Source: Draconibacterium mangrovi
Lineage (GTDB): Bacteria > Bacteroidota > Bacteroidia > Bacteroidales > Prolixibacteraceae
NCBI RefSeq assembly: GCF_010586825.1
Contig: NZ_JAAAGB010000001.1
Span: 620,001 to 684,000, forward strand
Direction of reading: 5' to 3'
DNA: 64,000 nucleotides
Shown: positions 11,063 through 45,503 of the stretch, in pieces
How positions within the stretch are numbered: position 1 is the first letter of the stretch
How the letters are laid out: each line of letters begins with the position of its first letter
Position numbers and translations under genes: made by a program
The notes under the pieces: generated by a model
Told to the model about the DNA's origin: nothing
What the model saw: the letters and a program-made list of their open reading frames with translations, nothing else
The model's database searches: none

Positions 11063-12364
11063 ATGAAGAAATTTCAACTGTTACTGGTTCTGCTGTTGCT
11101 TTCGGCAGTAACTTTTTCGCAAACCACACTAAAAGCTTTTCTCGAGAGTCAACCCGAGATTAAAAGTATTGAACAAATGAACTGCACCGATTTTTTTGCA
11201 GTTAAATACAAAATAATGGTGGAGCAGCCTGTTGATCATTCCGATCCATCGAAAGGAACATTTTTGCAACGGGTGCTGATCGCCGACAAAGGAGTTGACC
11301 AGCCCGTAGTTTTTATTACTGAAGGCTACAACGGCGGATATTCTGAAAACCCAAATTACATAAACGAGCTATGCCCGATTTTAGGGGCCAATCAAATTTG
11401 CATGGATCATCGTTATTTTGGCGAATCGATGCCGGAGCCTTTAAACTGGAATAACCTGACCGTGCGTAATGCCGCTGCCGATCATCACCACATTATTCAA
11501 ATGATGAAAAAATATTATTCGGGGAAATGGGTTAACACAGGCATTAGCAAAGGTGGACAAACAACAGCTTATCACCGCTGGCTTTACCCCAACGATGTTG
11601 ATGTTTCGGTACCGTATGTGGCGCCACTTAACTTTGGTGTTGAAGATGGCCGGCATGAGCCGTTTATTGCCCATACAACAGGAACACCGGAAGGCCGGGC
11701 AAAAGTACAGGCATTCCAACTGCACATTCTTAAAAACCGCGAAACGTACCTGCCACTTCTTCAGCAATATTGCAAGAATCAGAAGCTGCATCCGTTACTG
11801 GATAACAACGAGATGCTGGATTATGTGGTGCTGGAATTCTCTTACGGTTTTTGGCAGTACGACAACTCATTGGATGATATTCCACCATTGGATGCACCGG
11901 CAAAAGATTTGTTTACGGAGTTGGTTAAAGTATCGTCGCCCATGTACTTATCGAGTGAAGGCGTGGATATCTTTAAGTCGTTTTATGTGCAGGCGGCGCA
12001 CGAATTGGGTTATTACGGTTACGATGTAAAACCGTTCAAAGATTATTTGTCGATTAAAAGTGCAGAAGGCTGGCTGAACCGCATTTATCTGCCCGAACTG
12101 GCCATTAAATACAACAAAAAGACCGCTAAAGAGGTAGAAAAATTCATCAAAAAAACCGATTCCAAGATACTGTTTATTTACGGGGAGTGGGATCCGTGGT
12201 CGGCTTCGGCATTTGAAGTTCCGAACAAACCCAATTTCCTGAAAATTGTAAAACCAAAAGGGAGTCACAGTACCCGAATCGGAAATTTGCCTAAAGAACA
12301 AAAACGGCAGGTAAAAGAAACGCTTGAAGATTGGCTGGATATGAAAGTAAATATCGAGATTTAG
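11063..12364 (+). CDS. Exported S37-type (PS-10) tripeptidyl aminopeptidase-like serine peptidase
   Basis: A 433-residue alpha/beta-hydrolase peptidase with a signal peptide (MKKFQLLLVLLLLSAVTFSQ). The N-terminal VDHSDPSKGTFLQRVLI and FITEGYNGGYSE are typical of the S37 family. The nucleophile is in GISKGGQTT (Ser about residue 167), the acid in YGEWDPWSA and the base in GSHSTRIG near residue 402, giving a complete catalytic triad. It would remove tripeptides from peptides in the periplasm or at the surface. An intergenic inverted repeat follows and the next gene is convergent, so it is a single-gene unit. Confidence 0.92.
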   Translation: MKKFQLLLVLLLLSAVTFSQTTLKAFLESQPEIKSIEQMNCTDFFAVKYKIMVEQPVDHSDPSKGTFLQRVLIADKGVDQPVVFITEGYNGGYSENPNYINELCPILGANQICMDHRYFGESMPEPLNWNNLTVRNAAADHHHIIQMMKKYYSGKWVNTGISKGGQTTAYHRWLYPNDVDVSVPYVAPLNFGVEDGRHEPFIAHTTGTPEGRAKVQAFQLHILKNRETYLPLLQQYCKNQKLHPLLDNNEMLDYVVLEFSYGFWQYDNSLDDIPPLDAPAKDLFTELVKVSSPMYLSSEGVDIFKSFYVQAAHELGYYGYDVKPFKDYLSIKSAEGWLNRIYLPELAIKYNKKTAKEVEKFIKKTDSKILFIYGEWDPWSASAFEVPNKPNFLKIVKPKGSHSTRIGNLPKEQKRQVKETLEDWLDMKVNIEI

Positions 12365-12383: not shown

Positions 12384-12442
12384 GTCACACTGAGCGAAGT
12401 CGAAGTGACATCTCAATAGTCTTCTACTTCGCTCAGACTGAC
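12384..12442. repeat. Intergenic inverted-repeat element with GAGCGAAGTCGAAGTGAC core
   Basis: Arms GTCACACTGAGCGAAGT (12384-12400) and ACTTCGCTCAGACTGAC (12426-12442) match at 15 of 17 positions. I recall very similar GAGCGAAGTCGAAG elements scattered between genes in many Bacteroidota genomes. It can fold as a hairpin between two convergent genes and may serve as a terminator. Confidence 0.75.
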
Positions 12443-12445
12443 GAT

Positions 12446-13357
12446 CTACAAAAAGAACATGGCCACACCCCCAACAGTAATTACGGCCCCCAGAATTTCC
12501 TTCCAGTTTACCTTTTCTTTAAACAATAATATTGAAGGCCCGATAATCAAAACCGGAACAATAGCCATCAGTGTTGCTGCAATTCCGGCCTGCGTATGCT
12601 GAACTGCCAATAACGAAAAGGAAACACCAAGGAAAGGACCGAAGAAAGCACCAAGTGTAATTCGTTTCATAGCCGGCCCGTTTTTTAAGGCCGCCCAAAC
12701 GCGTGGCCAGCGTTTTAGAAATACAAAGAGAATAGAAAAACCAACAGTTCCCGCCAGAATTCGTATTTGGGTAGCCGAGAAAGCATCATAATCGCCCATT
12801 CCCTTTTTGCTGATTACCAAACCGGCTGCCTGCCCCATGGCACCACCCAAAGCCAGTAAAATTCCCTGAATAGGGTACGACGATTTAAACCTTCGGATTT
12901 TAACACCATTCTCTTCCGATTTTTCGCGTTTCAGAATAACAATAATAATTCCGGTCATGGTAATGGCCATTCCCAACCAACTTTGTGGAGCAAGTACTTC
13001 GCCCAAAAGCAGCCAGCCAATAAGCGCGGCAAAAGGTGGTGCCAGCGCCATTAACAACATGGCAATTCGTGCACCTATCAAAACGAAGGACTGAAAAAGT
13101 AATAAGTCGCCGATGACAAAACCAACCAATCCGGAAAAAGCCAGCCATTTCCAGGCATATAGGCTTGCGTCGGAGGGGAAGAAAAAACCACGGGCTATCC
13201 AACTGTAGGCACCAACCAGAAAGAAGGCAATTACCAAACGAATGAGATTAACCGCAAGCGAACCAACCTTTTTCCCGGCCGATTCGAATGCCAGTGATGT
13301 TACTGTCCAAAATACGGCAGTCAATACACCGGCTATTTCTCCAAAATGATTTTGCAT
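12446..13357 (-). CDS. EamA-family (DMT superfamily) membrane transporter
   Basis: A 303-residue protein with about ten hydrophobic segments in two five-helix halves, the duplicated EamA layout: first half ends with WLGMAITMTGIIIVILKRE, second with KEILGAVITVGGVAMFFL. Conserved features are GVLTAVFWTVTSLAFE in helix 1, ALAPPFAALIGWLLLGE and AIVPVLIIGPSILLFKE at the end of each half. It should export or import a small metabolite across the inner membrane; the substrate is unknown. An exact TAnnTTTG element lies only 5 bases before the ATG (13362-13369), which is too close for a normal leader, while a terminator-bearing RNA candidate lies on the same strand 74 bases upstream. Regulation by attenuation is therefore possible. 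Confidence 0.93.
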   Translation of the reverse strand: MQNHFGEIAGVLTAVFWTVTSLAFESAGKKVGSLAVNLIRLVIAFFLVGAYSWIARGFFFPSDASLYAWKWLAFSGLVGFVIGDLLLFQSFVLIGARIAMLLMALAPPFAALIGWLLLGEVLAPQSWLGMAITMTGIIIVILKREKSEENGVKIRRFKSSYPIQGILLALGGAMGQAAGLVISKKGMGDYDAFSATQIRILAGTVGFSILFVFLKRWPRVWAALKNGPAMKRITLGAFFGPFLGVSFSLLAVQHTQAGIAATLMAIVPVLIIGPSILLFKEKVNWKEILGAVITVGGVAMFFL

Positions 13358-13423
13358 GCGGCAAATGTACTAAATACAACCAATGTATTTACCGATTTCT
13401 TTTAGCCGAAAAAATCAGGCCTA

Positions 13424-13462
13424 ACATAAAAAAAGATCCTGACAAAAATGCCAGGATCTTTT
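13424..13462 (-). terminator. Intrinsic terminator inside the EamA upstream region
   Basis: Perfect 11-bp stem AAAAGATCCTG/CAGGATCTTTT with a 10-base loop; on the minus strand the stem runs into seven T in all. No coding gene ends here, which points to a non-coding transcript. Confidence 0.82.
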
Positions 13463-13590
13463 CCTCCTCTCTAGCCTTAAAAAGCAACTTTTAATTGGTC
13501 ACACATTCATAATTGGTCCTCCACCTCTTCCTTCTATCACAACTTAACCAATTACCTCAACAATTCAACTCTTCAATACTCTTATGGTTT
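13431..13590 (-). ncRNA. Candidate small RNA or transcription attenuator upstream of the EamA gene
   Basis: The 422-base gap between the TlpA-like and EamA genes holds no gene, but on the minus strand it shows a TACATTTG promoter element (13598-13605, exact TAnnTTTG), then about 160 bases ending in a hairpin with seven T. Inside, one TAATTGGT segment (on the minus strand, at 13547-13554) can pair with either of two downstream ACCAATTA copies (13492-13499 and 13510-13517), giving two exclusive hairpins. Purine-rich GAGAGGAGGAAAA precedes the terminator. No Rfam family is recognised. It may be a free small RNA or a leader switch for the transporter. The -33 element is poor (TTTG at 22 instead of 19 bases). 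Confidence 0.5.
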
Positions 13591-13716
13591 GTGCTTACAA
13601 ATGTATATTCAAAATAGAAACCCGCACCAAAACTATTGCTGAATAAGACAGCGTAAAAAACTGAATTTTAACTTCCCTTTTACTGACCCATTTTATTGCC
13701 AACTGATTATGAAGCA

Positions 13717-13756
13717 CAAAAAAACCGTTTTAAGCAGTTATCCTTAAAACGGTTTT
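13717..13756 (-). terminator. Terminator of the TlpA-like gene
   Basis: Perfect 14-bp stem AAAACCGTTTTAAG/CTTAAAACGGTTTT with an 8-base loop, ending in a T tract on the minus strand, 24 bases after the stop codon. Confidence 0.92.
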
Positions 13757-13779: not shown

Positions 13780-14877
13780 TTATTTGCTAAGGAACTCAGC
13801 AACAGTTTGACCCAGTTCTTCGCCTCTTTTGTTTTTAGCAACAATCTTTCCGGTTTTGTCAACCAACAAACTTGATGGGATGGAGTTTACACCATAGATT
13901 TGTGCTGCTGCATTATTCCAGTAAGCCAGATCGGAAACATGAGCCCAGGTTAAACCATCATCCTCGACAGCTTTTAACCAGGCATCCTTATCCCGGTCGA
14001 GCGAAACGCCAAACACACTAAATCCCTGATCTTTGTATTTGTTATACGTTGCAACAACATTCGGATTCTCGGCACGGCAAGGTCCACACCACGATGCCCA
14101 GAAGTCGAGCAAAGTCAGCTCATTCTGTGAATAGATATCCGAAAACTTAACCGGATTTCCATCTGCATCGTTTTGAGTGAAGTCAGGAGCTGTTTTTCCA
14201 ACGGCTACGGTTTTCAGTTTCTCAATTTTTGCTTTTAAATCCAGAATAGCAGGAACTGAGTCTAATTTTGCATCCAGATTACTCACTAAAGCTTCCAGTT
14301 CGTCAACTTCTTTTTCGTACTGAATTTGGCTTAACAGCAGCGGAGTAACATACGAAGCCGGATTTTCTTTCACAAAATCTTCCTGAATTACACCAACGCT
14401 GGCGTACAGGTCTTCAACCTGTTTCATCAATTCACTGGCTTTGGCCGTATCGCCTGAAGCGCTTGCTGTACGTGCTTCCTGGTAAATTGCCATGTACTCT
14501 TCGCTAATTTTCTGAATCTTATCGTTTATCGTTTTAAACTCATCGTGCGAAGCAGAACCACTAACCTGGATACCTGCAATTGAATCGGCTTTTCCGGTAA
14601 TCGACATGCTCGTATTTTCAACAAACACAACAGCCTTGTTACGTTCTCCGTTTACCGACAAATAATATACACCCGGGAAATCCACTTCTCCTTCCAAAAC
14701 AGCAACTCCATCAACCACCTCGGCAGTATCAATGCCAATCCACTGGCTGGCTCCACGTTGCTCCAACATCACATTTCCGTCAGCACCATCCAGTTTAACG
14801 GTAATTTTAAAACCATTCTGCGGCTGCGAACAGGCAAACAAGGCCAAACCTATAATAACAACTAATAATTTTCTCAT
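13780..14877 (-). CDS. TlpA/ResA-like thiol-disulfide oxidoreductase lipoprotein
   Basis: A 365-residue lipoprotein counted from MRKLLVVIIGLALFAC (lipobox LFAC, Cys16); the frame is open for 18 more codons but that stretch is not signal-like. Residues about 22-110 form a DUF4369-type beta domain (FKITVKLDGADGNVMLEQRG), residues 115-225 are helical, and the C-terminal 140 residues are an AhpC/TSA-thioredoxin domain with the redox motif WCGPC (263-267), a GVSLDRD segment and the cis-proline loop NSIPSSLLVD. It would reduce or form disulfides in periplasmic proteins. Single gene with its own terminator; the patatin gene is divergent. Confidence 0.94.
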   Translation of the reverse strand: MRKLLVVIIGLALFACSQPQNGFKITVKLDGADGNVMLEQRGASQWIGIDTAEVVDGVAVLEGEVDFPGVYYLSVNGERNKAVVFVENTSMSITGKADSIAGIQVSGSASHDEFKTINDKIQKISEEYMAIYQEARTASASGDTAKASELMKQVEDLYASVGVIQEDFVKENPASYVTPLLLSQIQYEKEVDELEALVSNLDAKLDSVPAILDLKAKIEKLKTVAVGKTAPDFTQNDADGNPVKFSDIYSQNELTLLDFWASWCGPCRAENPNVVATYNKYKDQGFSVFGVSLDRDKDAWLKAVEDDGLTWAHVSDLAYWNNAAAQIYGVNSIPSSLLVDKTGKIVAKNKRGEELGQTVAEFLSK

Positions 14878-32240: not shown

Positions 32241-32443
32241 ATGCCCTGGCAATCCTCAATCTGTTTTTCTGATGAGTTTCAAGAATGTTGCCCGTTTAAT
32301 TTCATCGCCCTTACGGACGATGCTATTATGTGTCGGGGCTTTGCCCCTATTGATTTCACAGGACTGAAAGTCCGATATGTGATAGCGTAGTCAGTGAGGA
32401 CAACAGATTAATTAGCCTATAAGTATTAACCCGATAATGATAT

Positions 32444-45293: not shown

Positions 45294-45365
<72 letters not shown>

Positions 45366-45430: not shown

Positions 45431-45503
45431 AGCGGGAAACGGGACTCAAACCCGCGACCCTTAGCTTGGAAGGCTAATGCTCTATCAACTGAGCTATTCC
45501 CGC
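45431..45503 (-). tRNA. tRNA-Gly (anticodon TCC)
   Basis: A 73-base tRNA on the minus strand: acceptor GCGGGAA/TTCCCGC, D arm GCTC..GAGC, anticodon loop CTTCCAA with TCC, T arm GCGGG-TTTGAGT-CCCGT, discriminator T, no encoded CCA. Confidence 0.97.

Follow-up and report, generated by a model that had tools for sequence, protein, structure and literature searches.

The window, which is the whole 64,000-nucleotide stretch of Draconibacterium mangrovi DNA analysed here, contains a candidate small RNA gene (locus A) in the interval between a gene for a TlpA-like lipoprotein and an EamA transporter gene (Table 1). The sequence elements listed in a preliminary description of this interval were all found again on the minus strand: a TAnnTTTG element at 13598-13605, which reads TACATTTG, a TAATTGGT arm with two possible ACCAATTA partners, and a terminator with seven T. 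The terminator hairpin (13462-13431) forms up to 14 pairs when G-U pairs are included, and ends 74 bases before the EamA ATG. A terminator-like hairpin also follows the tlpA-like gene, so the interval has a terminator at either end. The second TAnnTTTG element that had been seen upstream of eamA is likewise present, again as TACATTTG, at 4 bases from the ATG. This TAnnTTTG-N4-ATG arrangement is kept in 14 of 15 relatives, and the remaining one has TACATTTA, in which the last base is changed. A -7 element has a usual distance to the transcription start; with that spacing, an element 4 nt from the ATG predicts a leaderless eamA mRNA that would be independent of the upstream RNA. We also noted an inverted pair, CTGAGCGAAGTCGAAG and CTACTTCGCTCAG, at 12386-12450 (3' of an ORF at 11063-12364), which resembles an interspersed or terminator-like repeat.

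Table 1. Features of locus A and its surroundings, and positions of the related copies in the window's genome (contig:position)
Feature	Position	Strand	Remarks
Small RNA gene, locus A (candidate)	13429..13592	-	~164 nt; ends inferred from -7 element and terminator; transcript predicted from ~13592 to ~13429
-7 promoter element TACATTTG (TAnnTTTG)	13598..13605	-	Kept in 13 relatives, one of them an indel variant
5' box ACAAACC at inferred start	13586..13592	-	Almost every family member has ACAAACC(C) after its -7 element
Left arm TAATTGGT	13554-13547	-	Read from sequence
Two partner copies ACCAATTA	13517-13510 and 13499-13492	-	Read from sequence
Most conserved unpaired core CCAATTATGAATGTGTGAC	13498..13516	-	13-sequence alignment
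Weak conserved hairpin 5' of terminator	13462..13488	-	Across the genus, 92-96% of cells are paired
Intrinsic terminator, stem-loop and seven T	13428..13462	-	Loop diverged from the family's ANTGGACG
Proximal TTCAG	13639..13643	-	Starts 38 bp before -7 element
Distal TTCAG	13661..13665	-	22 bp further upstream than proximal
Third TCAG, same 22-bp phase	13683..13686	-	Read from sequence
EamA transporter gene (neighbour, outside RNA)	12446..13357	-	PF00892, E 4.4e-37
Separate eamA -7 element TACATTTG, 4 nt before ATG	13362..13369	-	15-relative comparison
TlpA-like thioredoxin-fold lipoprotein gene with DUF4369 (neighbour)	13780..14877	-	PF00578, PF14289
Terminator-like hairpin 3' of tlpA-like gene	13721..13756	-	14-pair stem; T-run read from sequence
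Copy B1	C2:43270-43375		CCGGANTGGACGCC search
Copy B2	C2:43563-43676		CCGGANTGGACGCC search; convergent gene downstream
Copy C	C11:848590-848701		CCGGANTGGACGCC search; convergent gene downstream
Copy D	C22:363919-364007		CCGGANTGGACGCC search; convergent gene downstream

A DNA search returned matches to the interval in 14 of 61 related genomes, and a covariance model built solely from locus A (R1) found the RNA in 15 of the 37 genomes of the genus. In the loci that were read, the RNA sits between the tlpA-like gene and eamA; in three species (L004, L007, L012) the RNA gene is separated from the tlpA-like gene by a gene for a 273-aa lipoprotein-like protein. In an alignment of 13 sequences, conservation covers the promoter, the ACAAACC start, the core CCAATTATGAATGTGTGAC, AAGTTG, GACTAGAGA-GAGGA and the terminator, and the 5' third of the RNA is variable in length. 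Judged from these sequences, the interval is conserved in relatives as a gene, beyond what chance would give. Further R1 hits in G081 (L072) and G008 (L071) and motif hits at L149, L155 and L175 were discarded as coding or chance sequence. A 34-base similarity of the 5' region of a DEAD-box helicase gene (L016, L026) to the start of the RNA was also set aside; it comprises the promoter and a few further bases, and fades in relatives.

R1 also detected a second locus in G006, G036, G003 and G029 (L067-L070), flanked by a gene for an acid-phosphatase-like HAD protein (PF12689) and a peptidase-like gene. The RNAs of this second locus have in common TTTGTAnnnTACAAACCC, an AGTTGTT...GACTGGATTA block and the 3' end AATCCCGGAGTGGACGCCGGGATT. 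Searching the window's own genome with CCGGANTGGACGCC returned four copies besides locus A (B1, B2, C and D). Common to the family members are a TAnnTTTG...ACAAACC(C) start and the terminator AATCCCGGANTGGACGCCGGGATT, although the invariance of the terminator among paralogs was partly imposed by the search pattern. TAnnTTTG...RCAAA was present at most 190 nt upstream of 34 of 38 distinct terminator-type motifs, versus 3.4% of random stretches from the same loci. A second model (R2), made from 18 short members with the locus-A sequences left out, matched L066 at 3.7e-12 and L065 at 4.1e-11. These are the most divergent locus-A members, from the tlpA-eamA locus in two species, and they keep the terminator CCCGGAGTGGACGCCGGG; because they carry the family terminator, they tie the locus in the window to the family. 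At E<=1e-4, R2 gave 68 matches in 28 of the 37 genus genomes, training sequences counted in. A sample of 392 other genomes from across the order gave no R2 match, and the whole-genome search with R2 misses locus A of the window's genome, in whose clade the terminator loop has diverged. An exact terminator scan of 84,980 species genomes returned Draconibacterium, Maribellus and Bacteroidota MAGs only, bar one chance hit, which is betaproteobacterial. Plasmids and viral contigs gave no match, and a literature search yielded no account of Draconibacterium small RNAs. No Rfam 15 family matched at its gathering score, in line with the preliminary description, which had recognized no known family. 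Independent promoters and terminators occur at several conserved loci, which is what generally marks a paralogous sRNA family. Most likely, the interval is a small regulatory RNA gene that stands on its own and has sister copies in the window's genome, about five in all; a free small RNA, which had been put forward earlier as the alternative reading, is supported by the conserved RNA gene with its own promoter, its own terminator and paralogous copies.

Many upstream regions of the family carry regularly spaced repeats (Table 1). When 22 distinct upstream regions were anchored on the -7 element, TCAG stood at -37 in 11 of them, while the best TCAG offset in 1000 shuffle sets was shared by at most 4 of the 22. 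TCAG was also present at -59 in 8/22 and at -81 in 7/22 regions, and 13 of the 22 had a 22-bp-spaced TCAG pair (shuffled mean 0.05, maximum 2). The fixed place of these 22-bp-spaced TTCAG repeats suggests that a common regulator probably switches together the copies that have them. Two direct repeats with a period of about 21-23 bp lie just upstream of the promoter, the arrangement typical of LytTR-controlled promoters, and the common regulator of the repeat-bearing copies is perhaps of the LytTR type. LytTR-type, LRS-like operons of Bacteroides are likewise reported to have 11-bp direct repeats separated by 11 bp, a period of 22 bp, just 5' of a TAnnTTTG-type promoter (PMC6193735). The LytTR assignment is nevertheless a lead only, since the repeat letters differ, being TCCGGTATTCA in the Bacteroides sites (PMC6193735) and TTCAGnnTTTT in the Draconibacterium family. 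The TAACTGA repeats of Beggiatoaceae (PMC4679880) were considered and rejected as a parallel: they are contiguous heptamers near start codons, a layout unrelated to that of the TTCAG repeats.

In the window's genome, a genus-wide search with the pattern WTCAG-N17-WTCAG-N32-34-TAnnTTTG recovered locus A, B1, B2 and one additional site; from other genomes it returned promoters of secreted proteins, whose mRNAs likewise begin TTACAAACCC. For example, secreted proteins of ~490 aa have both the 22-bp TTCAG repeats and the TTACAAACCC mRNA start at L185, L192 and L206 (G010, G014, G031). The promoter class is thus not confined to small RNAs. Because ACAAACCC in some genomes also begins mRNAs of this class, the start box may belong to the promoter and not act as a seed. 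We also noted a promoter-like TTCAG-N17-TTCAG site at G000:C25:113469-113536 that recurs in eight genomes; at the four loci inspected, L183, L200, L203 and L204, it precedes a small operon whose first protein reads MKKVAIPIAN... At locus D, a ATGACAAAGGTCATTTTGA palindrome stands at a fixed distance before the promoter in several species (L140, L142, L146, L157), which suggests a candidate CRP/FNR-type operator.

The whole RNA is more stable than shuffled sequences (z = -4.0), an excess that is due to the terminator; without it, no excess folding was found among 13 relatives (z between -1.2 and +1.7). Conserved structure is limited to the terminator, in which 4 of 12 sequences have a G-C pair exchanged for A-U, and to the weak hairpin just before it, which varies mostly via G-U changes on one side. 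These findings bear on the reading that the preliminary description had favored, a cis-acting riboswitch or attenuator of eamA in which alternative TAATTGGT/ACCAATTA hairpins govern terminator formation. A terminator on the same strand, 74 nt 5' of eamA, and an arm with two candidate partners would suit such a device, and the two exclusive hairpins are indeed possible in the window sequence. They are not, however, conserved among relatives: 5 of 12 distinct relatives have lost the TAATTGGT arm, and in L006 and L009-L013 it is altered beyond pairing while the first ACCAATTA partner is nearly invariant. The check for covarying pairs in relatives was negative: pair counts showed no compensatory change at the first partner, and at the second they did not exceed those of shuffles. 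In an own-versus-swapped arm test, 845 of 10000 permutations were equally good, and the part before the terminator folds like shuffled sequence. The helix with the second partner (13554-13547 with 13499-13492) may exist in the close clade, at a level of support that does not exceed shuffles. Moreover, eamA has a conserved putative promoter of its own, which argues against dependence on the promoter of the RNA, and paralogs B2, C and D, which have no same-strand gene downstream, face convergent genes, so that a leader role is excluded for those copies. With the arm not conserved, a separate -7 element at eamA and such paralogs, we consider control of eamA by this RNA in cis to be very unlikely.

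The recurrence of a similar hairpin at several loci could also point to dispersed repeats or plain terminators, brought about by transposition or convergence and without regulatory function, the more so as a terminator shape alone evolves easily. Yet each copy holds its orthologous intergenic position across species, the middle varies while promoter, start box, upstream repeats and terminator loop stay conserved as a set, and a plain terminator would not need a conserved loop. Such an origin is therefore unlikely. A micro-ORF or leader peptide (ATG AAT GTG TGA, with GGAGG 5' of the ATG) would be compatible with the presence of ATGAATGTGTGA or ATGAATTTGTGA in 12 of 13 relatives, but it has three codons only, the MNV* frame is lost in L013 (TTAAGGATGTGTAAC) and missing from the paralogs, and Shine-Dalgarno sites are rarely used in Bacteroidota, which together leave this reading extremely improbable. 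The RNA might instead titrate a protein via the terminator loop UGGACG or via GGA-rich stretches, rather than pair with mRNAs. This would fit a family in which the start box and the terminator loop are the most constant parts across loci and the middle differs between paralogs, and in which GGAAGAGGTGGAGG is unpaired in locus A; one locus-A clade, however, lacks the loop and still keeps its own unpaired core, and we hold titration to be possible, if rather doubtful.

Paralogous sRNA families are already known as a kind, for example FopS of Bacteroides (Rfam RF04319; PMC11697453). FopS (RF04319) resembles the Draconibacterium family in its occurrence in Bacteroidota, its TAnnTTTG promoters and its several copies per genome with a single-stranded 5' part and an intrinsic terminator; several copies with an unpaired 5' part and an intrinsic terminator are what we found in Draconibacterium as well. 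Nevertheless, the RF04319 covariance model scored 14.6 bits (E 8.7), below its gathering score of 56, so the Draconibacterium family is not FopS. It also differs from FopS in copy number (about 1-5 versus 12-15) and in having a conserved terminator loop and 22-bp TTCAG repeats. GibS of Bacteroides thetaiotaomicron (PMC7366714) is likewise a conserved, largely unstructured intergenic Bacteroidota sRNA, but no sequence relation to locus A, itself without an Rfam match, was found. 6S RNA and 6S-Flavo are similar in length to locus A, which by contrast matches no Rfam family and lacks a long bubble-containing hairpin.

From the conservation, paralogy, architecture and repeat phasing observed at these loci, we infer that each copy is transcribed from its own TAnnTTTG promoter, starting with ACAAACC(C). 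The product would be largely unpaired and stabilized by the intrinsic terminator, which keeps the loop ANUGGACG at most loci. A shared candidate regulator acting via the 22-bp-spaced TTCAG would switch loci A, B1, B2 and some others together, and locus D would receive a CRP/FNR-type input via its TGACAAAGGTCA palindrome in place of the TTCAG repeats. The RNAs most likely pair in trans, between their unpaired conserved segments and mRNAs, perhaps with an RRM-domain protein as carrier. The window's genome encodes two such RRM_1 proteins, and in Bacteroides the paralogous FopS sRNAs, which are further marked by repression of susC-like mRNAs, are bound by an RRM protein, RbpB (PMC11697453). Collectively, our results make it probable that the interval is a stand-alone sRNA gene and a member of a paralogous family, probably co-regulated and most likely trans-acting. 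More tentatively, as a possible rather than an expected extension, we suggest an undescribed multi-copy Draconibacterium/Maribellus sRNA regulon in which a protein would recognize the terminator loop ANUGGACG, a LytTR-type regulator would switch most copies together via as many as three TTCAG sites in 22-bp phase and a single copy would be CRP/FNR-wired, so that different signals would feed one RNA pool.

Elsewhere in the window, an Acido-Lenti-1 RNA (RF01687) was detected at 32303-32348 on the plus strand of this Bacteroidota genome, at 37.5 bits against a gathering score of 37, and two tRNA genes lie side by side on the minus strand (45294-45365 and 45431-45503).

Knowledge of RNA regulation in Bacteroidota comes mainly from Bacteroides and a few flavobacteria. 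If our reading is true, a co-regulated set of paralogous sRNAs exists in the culturable D. orientale, D. sediminis and Maribellus, and such sets would have originated more than once in the phylum. The conserved terminator loop and the defined upstream repeat are handles for finding the protein partner and the regulator.
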